From NCBI GenBank assembly GCA_022823235.1, contig JAJDXO010000030.1, positions 124,001-188,000 on the forward strand: a stretch of DNA of 64,000 nucleotides, given 5' to 3'. Of this stretch, positions 26,762 to 49,425 are shown in pieces. The DNA is from Rhodospirillales bacterium (lineage in GTDB: Bacteria; Pseudomonadota; Alphaproteobacteria; Rhodospirillales; UBA2165). Under the pieces are notes generated by a model. The model searched no databases, had not been told where the DNA came from, and saw only the letters and a program-made list of their open reading frames with translations. How positions within the stretch are numbered: position 1 is the stretch's first letter; each line of letters starts with the position of its first letter. The translations under genes and the position numbers were made by a program.

Positions 26762-27553
26762 TCAGGAAGCAGGCTCGAAGAACTCGCTGCCGCCGTAGCC
26801 CGCTTCCGCCGGAATCCGAAAGATCCGGCCGCCATCCGCATCCTCCATGGTGGGCTCCACGGTAACCAACGCCTCGCCGGCGGCGTTGGCGAAGGCCTGA
26901 TCGACCGTCGAGGCTCGACCGAGTTTTTCCAGATTCAGCCTCGTGGCGAAGACGATGGAGCGCTTGCCGGCGGCCTGATCGGCGAGGGCTTGGGCGGGCG
27001 TGATCCAAACGGAATCCACCGATTCCGCGCCGTCATGGTCCCCAAGCTGTTCGTCGGGCGCGACCGCCAGGTAAAACATCGTATCGAACCGTTTGGGCGC
27101 CACTTTCGGCGTGATCCAATGGGCAAACGGGGTCATGTGGCCGCAGGCGTAATGGATGCCTTCCGCCGCCTGGATATCGCCCAAGGAAATCTCGTTGGCG
27201 TGGAGTTTGGCCCGATACCGGTCCCGCAGGCGGTCGAGGCGCTGGCCGCCCACCAGCGGCCCGTCGGCTTCATCCCGGGCCAGCAGGATACCCGCTTCCT
27301 CGAATGTCTCCCGGATGCCGCAGAGACGAAAGGCGGTCTCCTCCGGGGAAAGGCCGTTTGCCGGGCGGGCCTCGGCGAGCGCCGCGTCCGCCGGGTCCAG
27401 CTTGCCGCCGGGAAATACCAGGGCGCCCGAAGCGAAGTCGATCTTGCGGTGGCGTTCGACCATGAACACTTCGAGGCCATTTTCACCGTCCCGGAGAAGA
27501 AGGACGGTCGCGGACGGATTGGCCGGAACCGGGGATTGATCGGACATGTTCAC
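26762..27553 (-). CDS. NUDIX hydrolase (NUDT7/8/19-like, inserted Nudix box)
   Basis: This 263-residue protein has a Nudix box interrupted by an insertion: VFPGGKLDPAD, then about 20 residues, then FRLCGIRETFEEAGILLA, the RExxEExG metal site. This layout is typical of the larger Nudix proteins that hydrolyse CoA esters or related diphosphates. HMTPFAHWITPKVAPKRFDT is another feature shared by that subgroup. The start may be Met1 (27553) or Met3 (27547). It follows nrdB by 89 bp on the same strand and may be read through from the nrd promoter. Substrate not determined. Confidence 0.85.
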   Translation of the reverse strand: MNMSDQSPVPANPSATVLLLRDGENGLEVFMVERHRKIDFASGALVFPGGKLDPADAALAEARPANGLSPEETAFRLCGIRETFEEAGILLARDEADGPLVGGQRLDRLRDRYRAKLHANEISLGDIQAAEGIHYACGHMTPFAHWITPKVAPKRFDTMFYLAVAPDEQLGDHDGAESVDSVWITPAQALADQAAGKRSIVFATRLNLEKLGRASTVDQAFANAAGEALVTVEPTMEDADGGRIFRIPAEAGYGGSEFFEPAS

Positions 27554-27642: not shown

Positions 27643-28602
27643 CTAGGCGAACGCTTCTTCCCAGGTTCCCCGGGTGGCCGCCTTGGAATACTCGGTCGCC
27701 CGGTTCTCGAAGAAGTTGGTGTGCTCGACGGCGTTGAGCATGCCGTCCAGCCACGGCAGGGGATGCCGCCGCTCGCGATATATCTCTTCCAGTCCCAACT
27801 GGGTGAGGCGACGATTGGCGATGTAGCGGATGTAGGCCTTGATGTCGCCGGCCGCGAGTCCCTCCACCGGACCAAGTTCGAAGGCGAGATCGACGAAGGC
27901 GTCTTCGTGGGTGACGATGGTTTCACACGCCTTGTAGAGACCGCCCCGGAATTCCTCGGTCCAGATGCCCGGATTTTCCGAGATGAACGTCCGGAACAGC
28001 TTGATGATCGAGGCGCAGTGGAGGCTTTCGTCGCGCACGGACCACGTGACGATCTGTCCCATCCCCTTCATTTTGTTGAGCCGCGGGAAATTCAGCAGAA
28101 TGGCGAAGCTGGCAAATAGCTGCAGACCCTCGGTGAAACCGCCGAACACGGCCAGGGTCTTGGCGATGTCTTCCGGCGTATCGACACCGAATTCCTGCAT
28201 GTAATCGTACTTGTCTTTCATCTCCTTGTATTGGAGGAACGCGGAGTACTCGGTCTCCGGCATGCCGATGGTGTCGAGCAGATGCGAGTAGGCGGCGATA
28301 TGCACCGTCTCGATGTTGGAGAACGCAGACAGCATCATCTGCACCTCGGTGGGTTTGAACACCTGCGAGTAATGCTTCATGTAGCAGTTGTTGACTTCGA
28401 TATCCGACTGGGTGAAGAAGCGGAAAATCTGGGTCATCAGGTGACGTTCGGACTCATTGAGTTTGTGGTGCCAGTCCTTCACGTCATCCGCCAGCGGCAC
28501 CTCCTCGGGCAGCCAGTGTACCTGCTGTTGCTTCAGCCAGGCGTCGTAGCACCACGGATATGAGAACGGTTTGTAGACCGGTTTGGCGTCCAACAGGGAC
28601 AT
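27643..28602 (-). CDS. nrdB: Class I ribonucleotide reductase, beta subunit
   Basis: This 319-residue subunit houses the diiron-type cofactor. Candidate ligands are Asp67, Glu98 and His101 (IETVHIAAY), Glu159, Glu192 and His195 (RDESLHCAS), and the radical tyrosine position is occupied (Tyr105). It is therefore a tyrosyl-radical type and not an Ic/Phe type. The ATG at 28602 has a strong AGGAGG; the frame upstream runs into nrdA. It lies 34 bp after nrdA and shares the riboswitch-controlled transcript. Its TAG stop falls inside a dispersed repeat end (GAAACTGCTCTAGG). Confidence 0.95.
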   Translation of the reverse strand: MSLLDAKPVYKPFSYPWCYDAWLKQQQVHWLPEEVPLADDVKDWHHKLNESERHLMTQIFRFFTQSDIEVNNCYMKHYSQVFKPTEVQMMLSAFSNIETVHIAAYSHLLDTIGMPETEYSAFLQYKEMKDKYDYMQEFGVDTPEDIAKTLAVFGGFTEGLQLFASFAILLNFPRLNKMKGMGQIVTWSVRDESLHCASIIKLFRTFISENPGIWTEEFRGGLYKACETIVTHEDAFVDLAFELGPVEGLAAGDIKAYIRYIANRRLTQLGLEEIYRERRHPLPWLDGMLNAVEHTNFFENRATEYSKAATRGTWEEAFA

Positions 28603-28636: not shown

Positions 28637-30538
28637 CTATTGGCAGGCCAGGCAATCTTCGTAATCGGTGCTCCCGGCGATTTCGACGGCCGGGGCTTCA
28701 TTCGGCGTTTCGGCCGCCGCGCCCCGTTCCGTGACCACTTCCGCCCGCTGGATGGATTTGGAACGGCAGTAGTAGAGGCTCTTCATCCCCTTCTTCCACG
28801 CCTGGAAGTGAATCTGATGGAGGTCCCGCTTGTGGACATCGGCGGGGAGGAACAAATTCACCGATTGCGATTGGTCGATGTGGGGCGTTCGGTCGGCCGC
28901 GAGTTCCACCACCCAGCGCTGATCCAGCTCGAAGGCGGTCTTGAACACGTCCTTTTCGTCCCGGGTCAGGAACTCCAGATGCTGCACGCTGCCTTCGTTG
29001 GTGGTGACGGAGCTCCAGGTCTCCTCATTGTCCCGGCCCTTCTCCGCCAGCAGTTTCCCGAGGTGCCGGTTGCGGACGTTGAACGAGCCCGACAGGGTCT
29101 TGTGCATATAGCTGTTGCCGCTGATGGGCTCGATGCCGGGAGAGGTGCCGCCGCAGATGATCGAGATGGACGCGGTCGGCGCAATGGCCGTCTTGTTGGA
29201 GAACCGCTCCTCGATGCCGTAATCCTCGGCGTCGGGGCAGGCGCCCCTTTCCTGGGCCAAGGTCTTCGAGGCGGCGTCGACGCGCTCTTGAATTTGAGCG
29301 AATATCCTGTTGTTCCAGGCCTTGGCCATGGCGCTCTCGAAGGGAATCATCTTGGACTGGAAGAACGAGTGCAGCCCCATGGCGCCGAGCCCGACGGAAC
29401 GCTCGCGCATCGCCGAATACGTGGCCCGTTCCATGGAATCGGGCGCCTTGTCGATGAAATCCTGGAGCACGTTGTCGAGGAAACGCATGACGTCCTCGAT
29501 GAAGCGCGGATCATCCTTCCACTCGTCATAGGTCTCGATGTTGAGAGAGGACAGGCAACAGACCGCGGTACGCTCTTCGCCCAGGTGGTCGATGCCGGTG
29601 GGCAGGGTGATCTCCGAGCAGAGATTGGAGGTCTTCACCGTCAGTCCGGCGAGCTTGTGATGCTCGGGCACCATGGAATTTACCCGGTCGGAAAAGACGA
29701 TGTACGGCTCGCCGACCTCGATTCGCGCGGTCAGCAGGCGAATCCAGAGCGAACGCGCCGACACCGTGCGAATCGGCGTTCCCTCCAATGGACTGATCAG
29801 CGCCCAGTCCTCGTCGGCCTCGACGGCGCGCATGAAGGCATCCGAGACCAGGACGCCATGATGCAGGTTGGGCGCCTTGCGGTTGGGATCGCCGCCGGTG
29901 GGCCGGCGGATTTCCATGAATTCCTCGATCTCGGGGTGATCGATGGGGAGGTACACCGCCGCGGAGCCGCGCCGCAGCGAGCCCTGGGAAATGGCGAGTG
30001 TGAGGGAATCCATCACCCGGATGAACGGGATGACGCCCGAGGTCTTGCCGGCGTTGCCGACGCGTTCGCCGATGGACCGCAGATTTCCCCAATAGCTGCC
30101 GATCCCGCCGCCGTTGGACGCGAGCCAGACGTTCTCGGTCCACAACCCGACGATGCCGTCGAGGGAATCGGAGGCTTCGTTCAGGAAGCACGAAATGGGC
30201 AGTCCGCGATCCGCGCCGCCATTCGAGAGGACCGGGGTCGCCGCCATGAACCAGAGCCTGGAGAGGTAGTCGTAAATCCGCTGGGCGTGTCCGTCATCAT
30301 CGCCGTAGGTGCTGGCAACCCGCGCAAACAGATCCTGGTAGTCTTCTCCCGGAAGCAGGTATCGGTCGGTCAATACGGCTTTGCCGAAATCGGTCAGGTT
30401 GGCGTCCCGGCTCTTGTCTATGCGAACCTTGGGTCCCCTCGCGGTCTGGATGGAATCCAGCATGACCGCGGCCATTTCCTCTCCGGTCTTAGGCAATTCC
30501 AGCGACAATTCGCCGCTTGCTTCCGTATTATCCAGCAC
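28637..30538 (-). CDS. nrdA: Class I ribonucleotide reductase, alpha subunit
   Basis: This 633-residue catalytic subunit reduces ribonucleoside diphosphates. Cys117 (PISCFLNEA) and the Cys327/328 pair (AVCCLSSLNIE) are the redox cysteines. Asn305, Cys307 and Glu309 (SNLCSEITLP) form the catalytic loop, and Cys629/Cys632 (CLAC) are the C-terminal shuttle. An N-terminal ATP-cone is absent, so overall activity regulation by dATP through a cone is not expected. The GTG start at 30538 follows GGAGG. A cobalamin riboswitch lies in the leader. A 638-residue antisense frame across this gene is a shadow. Confidence 0.95.
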   Translation of the reverse strand: MLDNTEASGELSLELPKTGEEMAAVMLDSIQTARGPKVRIDKSRDANLTDFGKAVLTDRYLLPGEDYQDLFARVASTYGDDDGHAQRIYDYLSRLWFMAATPVLSNGGADRGLPISCFLNEASDSLDGIVGLWTENVWLASNGGGIGSYWGNLRSIGERVGNAGKTSGVIPFIRVMDSLTLAISQGSLRRGSAAVYLPIDHPEIEEFMEIRRPTGGDPNRKAPNLHHGVLVSDAFMRAVEADEDWALISPLEGTPIRTVSARSLWIRLLTARIEVGEPYIVFSDRVNSMVPEHHKLAGLTVKTSNLCSEITLPTGIDHLGEERTAVCCLSSLNIETYDEWKDDPRFIEDVMRFLDNVLQDFIDKAPDSMERATYSAMRERSVGLGAMGLHSFFQSKMIPFESAMAKAWNNRIFAQIQERVDAASKTLAQERGACPDAEDYGIEERFSNKTAIAPTASISIICGGTSPGIEPISGNSYMHKTLSGSFNVRNRHLGKLLAEKGRDNEETWSSVTTNEGSVQHLEFLTRDEKDVFKTAFELDQRWVVELAADRTPHIDQSQSVNLFLPADVHKRDLHQIHFQAWKKGMKSLYYCRSKSIQRAEVVTERGAAAETPNEAPAVEIAGSTDYEDCLACQ

Positions 30539-30615
30539 ATCGGCCTCCGTTATTGATCCTTATCCGGCCATCCCGCCCGGCCCCTCATCCCGCCCGGCCC
30601 GGAACGTCGTCAGTC

Positions 30616-30799
30616 GATGGTCAGGTCTCCCGGCTCACGGATACGCCGTCCGTTCCTGCCTTCCCGGGTCCCCAGCGACCCGGTGGAACCGACCATCCGT
30701 CTACAGTTGCGGGGGCAGCGCCGGACTTGGCTGGGCTGAAATCAGCCCTAAAAAAACAACCCGCACCGGCTTCCCTCTCAATCCCCAAGGGGAACCATC
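30616..30799 (-). ncRNA. Cobalamin (B12) riboswitch upstream of nrdAB
   Basis: Reading the minus strand, the landmarks come in canonical order: GGGAAGCCGGTGCG, then TCCGGCGCTGCCCCCGCAAC followed by TGTA, a GGTCGGTTCCACCGGGTCGC arm, CCGGGAAGGC, and the B12 box GAGCCGGGAGACCTGACC. A closing stem pairs GATGGT (30794-30799) with ACCATC (30616-30621). These match the AdoCbl-type riboswitch class. The next gene downstream is nrdA, 78 bp away, so B12 should repress this B12-independent reductase. The leader between them holds GGGCCGGGCGGGATG twice, 17 bp apart, possibly part of the expression platform. Confidence 0.93.
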
Positions 30800-30802
30800 A
30801 AC

Positions 30803-30840
30803 TACTAGATATAGTATGTGGACCAATTTTGACGTCAATA
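30803..30840 (-). promoter_or_regulatory. Candidate nrdA promoter with overlapping NrdR-box-like palindrome
   Basis: On the minus strand TTGACG (30833-30838) and ACTATA (30810-30815) are 17 bp apart, a good sigma-70-type pair. This would start transcription just before the riboswitch. TACTA-GATA-TAGTA (30803-30816) is a palindrome covering the -10 and resembles NrdR boxes, which repress nrd genes. Only one box is apparent, whereas NrdR sites are normally paired. Confidence 0.45.
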
Positions 30841-31035
30841 CTTTGTTGCCTTGGAATCGTCGATTTGGCCAAAAAATGGGTCGGTTAGGCCCGAGTGTGG
30901 CTTTCCTGCCATAGGATGCGCGACGGCAATTGGCGGGGGCAGCGGCCTCGAGGCGGCCCGCACGTCCGATCCGGGTGCCTTGTCGTCCCTCGGGCCCGGT
31001 GATAGTTTCCGCGCCGTTCCGAAGGGAGAATTTCC

Positions 31036-47715: not shown

Positions 47716-49425
47716 ATGGCATACGAAATCGAACGCCCGGCCTACGCGGCCATGTTCGGCCCGACCACCGGCGACAAGGTGCGGCTTGCGGATACGGAGC
47801 TGTTCATCGAGGTCGAGGACGACCGCACGATCTACGGCGAAGAGGTAAAATTCGGCGGCGGCAAGGTGATCCGGGACGGCATGGGCCAGTCCCAGGCGAG
47901 CCATGCCGATGGCGCCGTCGATACCGTCATCACCAACGCCCTGATCGTCGATCATTGGGGCATCGTCAAGGCCGATATCGGTATCAGGGACGGGCGCATC
48001 GCCGCCATCGGCAAGGCGGGCAACCCGGACGTTCAGCCCGGCATCGACATCGTCATCGGTCCCGGCACGGAGGCGATTGCCGGCGAGGGGCGCATCCTCA
48101 CCGCCGGCGGCATCGACGCCCACGTTCACTGGATCTGTCCCCAGCAGATCGATGACGCCCTTTACTCCGGCGTCACCACCATGCTGGGCGGCGGCACCGG
48201 CCCCGCGGACGGCACCAACGCGACGACGTGCACGCCGGGACCCTGGCACATGGAGCGGATGCTGCAGGCCGCCGAGGGCTTCAACATGAACCTGGGTTTC
48301 TTCGGCAAGGGCAACGCCTCCCGGCCGGCGGCGCTCATGGAGCAGGTGGAAGCCGGCGCCTGCGGGCTCAAGCTTCACGAGGATTGGGGCACCACGCCGT
48401 CCGCCATCGACACCTGCCTTGGCGTGGCGGAAGAAACCGACGTTCAGGTGGCGATCCACACCGATACCCTGAATGAGAGCGGCTTCGTCGACAACACGGT
48501 TGCGGCGCTCAAGGGCCGGACCATCCATGCCTTTCATACGGAAGGCGCCGGCGGCGGCCACGCGCCGGATATCATCAAGGTCTGCGGCGAGGCCAACGTA
48601 CTGCCGTCGTCCACAAATCCGACCCGGCCGTTCACCGTCAACACCGTCGATGAACATCTCGACATGCTGCTGGTGTGTCACCATCTGGACAGCCGGATCC
48701 CCGAAGACGTGGCCTTCGCCGAAAGCCGCATCCGGCGGGAAACCATCGCGGCGGAAGACATCCTTCATGACCTGGGGGCGTTCTCCATGATCGCGTCGGA
48801 CAGCCAGGCCATGGGCCGGGTGGGCGAGGTGATCGTCCGGACCTGGCAGACGGCGGACAAAATGAAACGTCAGCGGGGCGCGCTCGAGGGCGAGACCGGC
48901 GACAACGACAACCTCCGGGTCAAACGCTATATCGCCAAGTACACCATCAACCCGGCGCTGACCCACGGCATCGCCGATCACGTGGGTTCGGTGGCGGCCG
49001 GCAAGCTCGCCGATCTGGTTTTGTGGAAGCCCATGTTTTTCGGCGTGAAGCCTGATTTGATCCTGAAGTGCGGCACCATCGCCGGCGCCGCCATGGGCGA
49101 TCCCAATGCCTCCATCCCGACGCCGCAGCCGGTTCACTACCGGCCCATGTTCGGCGGGTTCGGCGGCTCGCTGACGGCGAGCTCGGTCACTTTCCTCTCC
49201 AAGCCGGCGTTCGACGCGGGCGCCGCCGACAAGTTCGGGCTCGCCAAGACGCCGCTGCCGGTTTCCGGCTGCCGGTCGGTGAAGAAGACCGACATGGTCC
49301 TGAATGACGCGACACCGGAGATGCAGGTCGACCCCGAGACCTACGAGGTGCGGGCCGACGGCGACCTGCTCGCCTGCGAGCCGGCGGCCGAGTTGGCCAT
49401 GGCCCAGCGTTACTTCCTGTTCTGA
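47716..49425 (+). CDS. ureC: Urease subunit alpha (catalytic, nickel)
   Basis: This 569-residue subunit holds the dinickel site that hydrolyses urea to ammonia and carbamate. All expected residues are present: His136 and His138, Lys219 (the carbamylated lysine, GLKLHEDWG), His248, His274, the flap Cys321-His322-His323 (VCHHLD) and Asp362. Numbering is offset by two from Klebsiella urease. It should be active once loaded by the accessory proteins. A long antisense frame across it is a codon-bias shadow. Confidence 0.98.

Follow-up and report, generated by a model that had tools for sequence, protein, structure and literature searches.

A cobalamin riboswitch precedes the B12-independent class I ribonucleotide reductase genes of a Rhodospirillales bacterium and of other Alphaproteobacteria

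Why should the genes of a ribonucleotide reductase (RNR) that does not use vitamin B12 be preceded by a cobalamin riboswitch? The question was raised by the nrdAB locus of a Rhodospirillales bacterium (GenBank assembly GCA_022823235.1). The locus lies in a stretch of 64,000 nucleotides (nt) of contig JAJDXO010000030.1 (positions 124,001 to 188,000), which is referred to below as the window and whose numbering is used for its features. A first-pass annotation of the window had placed a riboswitch at 30616-30799 and had suggested that class I RNR is turned off when B12 is available and that a class II enzyme (NrdJ) then takes over. Comparison of sequences makes it very probable that adenosylcobalamin represses nrdAB via the leader riboswitch and thereby leaves deoxyribonucleotide synthesis to class II enzymes.

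The window was scanned with the covariance model of the cobalamin riboswitch (RF00174), as the annotation had proposed. A match complete over model positions 1-189, with a score of 98.2 bits (E 2.8e-23) and thus well over the gathering score of 31.5, was found at 30602..30814 on the minus strand; it encloses the annotated interval and lies 63 nt from the GTG start codon of nrdA, on the same strand. The aptamers of the two congeners scored 85.7 and 86.5 bits. When 24 nrdA-linked riboswitches were aligned, two-sided changes were found in 29 of the 50 pairs of the Rfam structure. The covariation score was 0.261, compared with 0.156 ± 0.008 after shuffling (0 of 500 as high) and with no more than 0.169 when the structure was slid, totals that are lowered because MAFFT misaligned some of the helices. 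The structure is kept by compensatory change across the nrdA-linked aptamers. The B12 box, GCCGGGAGACCUG, at 30622..30634 (-), corresponds to near-invariant alignment columns among the homologues. By sequence and structure, the leader element was confirmed as a cobalamin riboswitch aptamer.

The downstream genes agreed with the annotation of NrdAB as a B12-independent class I enzyme. The large subunit is encoded by nrdA (28637..30538 (-), 633 amino acids (aa), GTG start at 30538; NF006577) and belongs to the PRK09102 family, with a score of 1012.6 bits (cut-off, 620). PF00317 and PF02867 were the only domains found by Pfam, which revealed no ATP-cone in NrdA. The closest named records, with NrdA that was 97% identical, came from metagenome-assembled genomes of Rhodospirillales. 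The small subunit is encoded by nrdB (27643..28602 (-), 319 aa; NF007186, 578 bits, cut-off 237; Pfam Ribonuc_red_sm), and a tyrosine was read by eye at the radical position (ETVHIAAYSHL); scores and motif agree with a small subunit of the diiron type.

The B12 context of the whole genome (3.78 Mb, 98.8% complete) was then considered. The genome contained exactly three RF00174 matches, including that in the nrdAB leader; the second preceded a TonB receptor gene that is accompanied by a BtuFCD-type transporter and cobD, and the third was between cobS and a cobP-cobW-cobN-cobA run, with cobQ just beyond. The nrdJ search proposed by the annotation yielded a full-length NrdJ (2142 bits), and another class II RNR was found that belongs to the NrdJ_Z family (782 aa, 581 bits). 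Downstream of the latter gene and on the same strand, a gene for a PduO-type cobalamin adenosyltransferase was found, which possibly provides a local supply of the cofactor (both genes, L090 228-3441, G000:C37). The genome-wide scan revealed no RF00174 match at either class II gene (C31 for nrdJ, C37 for nrdJ_Z), so that in this genome the riboswitch stands on the B12-independent RNR and not on the B12-dependent ones. MetH was present with a score over the cut-off, and no full-length MetE was found in the genome. With MetH and no full-length MetE, the cell probably depends on B12 for methionine anyway, and it nevertheless retains a B12-free reductase under predicted B12 control.

If B12 decides between the two RNR classes, riboswitch-linked nrdAB genes are expected only in genomes that also encode a class II RNR, a prediction that could have failed. 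It was examined in 289 alphaproteobacterial genomes, of which 125 encoded PRK09102-type NrdA over the cut-off and two encoded PRK07207-type NrdA. The leaders of all these nrdA genes were taken and searched with a hidden Markov model (leave-one-out recovery, 11 of 11), and the first 30 leaders and the positives were searched with Rfam; class II RNRs were scored by NF005736, or by TIGR02504 where NF005736 was missing. A same-strand riboswitch was found upstream of PRK09102-type nrdA in 16 of the 125 genomes, representing 12 of 74 families, and every match among these 16 positives passed the Rfam gathering score. PRK07207-type nrdA carried the riboswitch in all three cases examined (both genes of the sample and a similar gene of genome G057). 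As expected, all 16 genomes with riboswitch-linked nrdA encoded a class II RNR, and none of the 59-60 genomes without class II had the riboswitch (Fisher p ~1.4e-5). By family, the riboswitch occurred at nrdA in 12 of 36 families with a class II RNR versus 0 of 38 without it (p = 5.7e-5). The switch logic proposed in the annotation is thus supported by the confinement of riboswitch-linked nrdAB to class II genomes. One genome, G308, contained two PRK09102-type nrdA copies (L209 and L248), each with its own cobalamin riboswitch. In G118, another alphaproteobacterium, a yybP-ykoY manganese riboswitch was found on the minus strand (L160 926-1029), in the upstream region of an nrdA gene that is itself on the plus strand.

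Positions of RF00174 and NrdA matches were also compared in 60 relatives. All three genomes of the window's genus had the riboswitch directly upstream of PRK09102-type nrdA, as had two further genera of its family (G003 and G010), and it was absent from nrdA in the remaining relatives with intact PRK09102-type NrdA. In G051 and G057, the riboswitch precedes a longer NrdA. In G057, cobalamin riboswitches occur in tandem (L099 952-8119), the first before metE and the next before nrdAB, so that two B12-independent isozymes are each placed behind a riboswitch. In contrast to the ETVHIAAYSHL of the window, the NrdB proteins of G051 and G057 read EAVHTHTF, as class Ic enzymes do. An impression that the arrangement was limited to the genus of the window, gained from a regular-expression search of 80 close NrdA loci, was overturned by the search of whole genomes of relatives and by the class-wide leader survey; it had arisen because the sample, drawn by sequence similarity, was dominated by Pelagibacteraceae.

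The region between the aptamer and nrdA was studied for features of an expression platform. A presumed platform hairpin, P13/L13, is present in duplicate at 30564..30599 (-): the sequence GGCCGGGCGGGATG is tandemly repeated, with copies at 30599-30586 and 30582-30569 (-). Its loop, GCGGGA in both copies, is complementary to the L5 segment of the aptamer, GCUGCCCCCGC (30709..30719 (-)), which is conserved in the alignment and is presumed to form the other half of an L5-L13 kissing loop. Such a loop has been described for corrinoid riboswitches (PMC9600662, PMC10653944). A P13-like hairpin with the loop GCGGGR, complementary to the CCCGC of L5, followed 23 of the 24 nrdA-linked aptamers (shuffled mean, 2.7 of 24), which matches this interaction. 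The Shine-Dalgarno (SD) sequence of nrdA, GGAGG, is at 30544..30548 (-) and is conserved in the congeners. No intrinsic terminator was found by a search of the nrdAB leader. Thermodynamic folding of the leaders of four close genomes, with and without the aptamer, gave no single consistent alternative structure; C-rich segments with the potential to pair with the SD sequence were visible in several relatives. A translational output is our preferred guess for the nrdAB riboswitch, because cobalamin riboswitches of Caulobacter shut off translation reporters (PMC6538847), and Rho-dependent termination is a possible alternative. The aptamer of the window also contains a 34-nt insertion at 30729..30762 (-), placed by the Rfam alignment in the loop of a CCGG/CCGG stem, which forms the hairpin GGGCUG-AUUU-CAGCCC; most homologues have differing insert hairpins at the same spot.

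A promoter-like sequence, TTGACG-16-TACTAT, was recognised by its match to the consensus at 30811..30838 (-), and its predicted start at ~30804 approximately coincides with the 5' end of the aptamer. A promoter-proximal NrdR-like box, ATACTATATCTAGTAG (30802..30817 (-), consensus match 12/16), overlaps the -10 element as well as the aptamer's 5' edge, and a weak upstream box, CAACAAAGTATTGACG (30833..30848 (-), 9/16), overlaps the -35 element. The two boxes are separated by 15 bp, which agrees with the spacing reported for NrdR (PMC12176259). A match to the weak upstream box was found at an equal offset in most relatives. An NrdR-like box of at least 12/16 was found in 17 of the 21 leaders compared, a level reached by ~10% of shuffled leaders, and the genome contains an nrdR gene. 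The promoter-proximal box is kept upstream of nrdA in relatives whether or not they have the riboswitch, which suggests that the NrdR promoter is the older of the two and that the riboswitch was inserted immediately behind it, or was lost from there. Candidate NrdR-like boxes, CTACAATATCTAGTAA and CTACAAGATGTTGTGG (11/16 each), were also noted upstream of nrdJ (L091 ~2189-2311).

These findings suggest the following mechanism. The nrdAB mRNA would start with the cobalamin riboswitch. With adenosylcobalamin or a related corrinoid in ample supply, its binding to the aptamer would lead to formation of the L5-L13 kissing loop and lower nrdAB expression, and deoxyribonucleotides would be supplied by the two B12-dependent class II reductases. 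Under B12 shortage, nrdAB would be expressed, and the class I enzyme, which depends on oxygen, would take over, while NrdR at the candidate promoter boxes may add a separate response to nucleotide status. We infer repression by B12 from the riboswitch class, and ligand binding, the translational (or Rho-dependent) output and NrdR binding are likewise predicted steps. The proposed mechanism is supported by the complete sense-orientation RF00174 match directly upstream of nrdA, by the confinement of riboswitch-linked nrdA to genomes with a class II RNR, by the repression measured for Caulobacter leaders with RNA of this class (PMC6538847), by the presence of NrdJ and NrdJ_Z in a genome whose other two riboswitches are at B12 transport and cob genes, by the placement of both metE and nrdAB of G057 behind tandem riboswitches, by the complementarity of L13 to L5 in 23 of 24 cases, and by the NrdR-like boxes at the nrdAB promoter together with the nrdR gene.

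Several observations weigh against it. Relatedness within families is left in the co-occurrence test, so that the effect of shared ancestry is reduced and not eliminated. In 49-50 of the 65-66 class II-bearing genomes, nrdAB has no riboswitch, which indicates that the switch is optional and not a rule. Folding gave no clear SD-sequestering alternative for the genus of the window. Finally, the GCGGGA loop and the duplicated hairpin could alter switching in the window. The last point leads to an improbable, though the least improbable, alternative, in which the aptamer of this species binds B12 but the switch is weakened or broken and nrdAB is expressed at any B12 level: the window has GCGGGA twice, whereas the congeners G001 and G002 have GCGGGG, and its P13 region is duplicated. 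However, the five-pair GCGGG/CCCGC complementarity is retained, and the aptamer core is intact, with a score above those of both congeners.

Activation of nrdAB by corrinoid binding is very unlikely. One activating corrinoid riboswitch is known, that of A. halodurans cobT (PMC10653944), but it acts through a terminator, none of which was found in the nrdAB leader; moreover, NrdAB does not use B12, and activation would fit poorly with the two B12-independent isozymes placed behind riboswitches in G057. It is just as hard to credit that the element is a relic or belongs to another gene and that nrdAB has its promoter downstream of the element. In its favour, the aptamer of some relatives is 100-200 nt from the start codon, but in the window the distance is just 63 nt, the promoter-like site and NrdR-like boxes are upstream of the aptamer, and the neighbouring gatC- and gatA-like open reading frames (ORFs) are on the strand opposite to nrdAB.

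Both the arrangement and its logic are already known from other bacteria. In Streptomyces coelicolor, to which the annotation had rightly pointed, the class Ia operon nrdABS has a cobalamin riboswitch, and coenzyme B12 controls class I transcription (Borovok et al. 2006, as cited in PMC5962746). This actinobacterial operon contains nrdS, which was not seen at nrdAB of the window. The nrdAB genes of Propionibacterium acnes, also an actinobacterium, have, like those of the window, a cobalamin riboswitch in the 5' untranslated region; an nrd-box is predicted in their promoter, comparable to the NrdR-like boxes of the window, and the authors inferred that nrdJ takes over RNR production in response to B12. 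A difference is that nrdDG of this species also carries a riboswitch (PMC3848588). In the deltaproteobacteria Desulfovibrio vulgaris and Desulfuromonas, B12 elements precede nrdDG in nrdJ-bearing genomes, and the same isozyme argument was made explicitly for a B12-independent RNR, there of class III (PMC545781). Among Alphaproteobacteria, shut-off by B12 has been measured for the metE and btuB leaders of Caulobacter crescentus; one of these genes encodes a B12-independent isozyme, but the riboswitches are on btuB and metE only and not on RNR genes (PMC6538847). No paper on alphaproteobacterial nrdAB riboswitches was found in the searchable literature, outside of which most subscription journals lie, and the early surveys of Rodionov and Vitreschak may list cases. 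The remark in the annotation that the arrangement is less familiar in Alphaproteobacteria therefore holds for the searchable literature and not for the genomes, where it recurs in 12 families.

The present analysis contributes the wide distribution within Alphaproteobacteria, the test of co-occurrence, and the combined layout of NrdR-like boxes and riboswitch. For actinobacteria and deltaproteobacteria, a rule had been proposed by which B12 turns off the B12-free reductase of a cell that also has a B12-dependent one; this rule is extended to many alphaproteobacterial families and given a quantitative comparative test. The analysis also marks species whose DNA-precursor synthesis should respond to the B12 supply, which bears on B12 exchange in microbial communities. 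We lean slightly toward a broader view, in which RNR class choice by riboswitch would be a widespread, repeatedly gained or lost alphaproteobacterial trait found on two class I NrdA types. In the family of the window, the riboswitch would be fused to an NrdR operator, with nucleotide and B12 status acting on a single unit of promoter and leader, and transcription of this unit would begin at approximately the first nucleotide of the aptamer.

Two further features of the window were noted. A NUDIX-domain ORF lies immediately 3' of nrdB on the same strand (26762-27553 (-)). An Rfam match to 5_ureB_sRNA, a family of antisense RNA to ureB, was found at 47872-48157 (-) with 101.2 bits and may be due only to conservation of the urease coding sequence that lies on the opposite strand.
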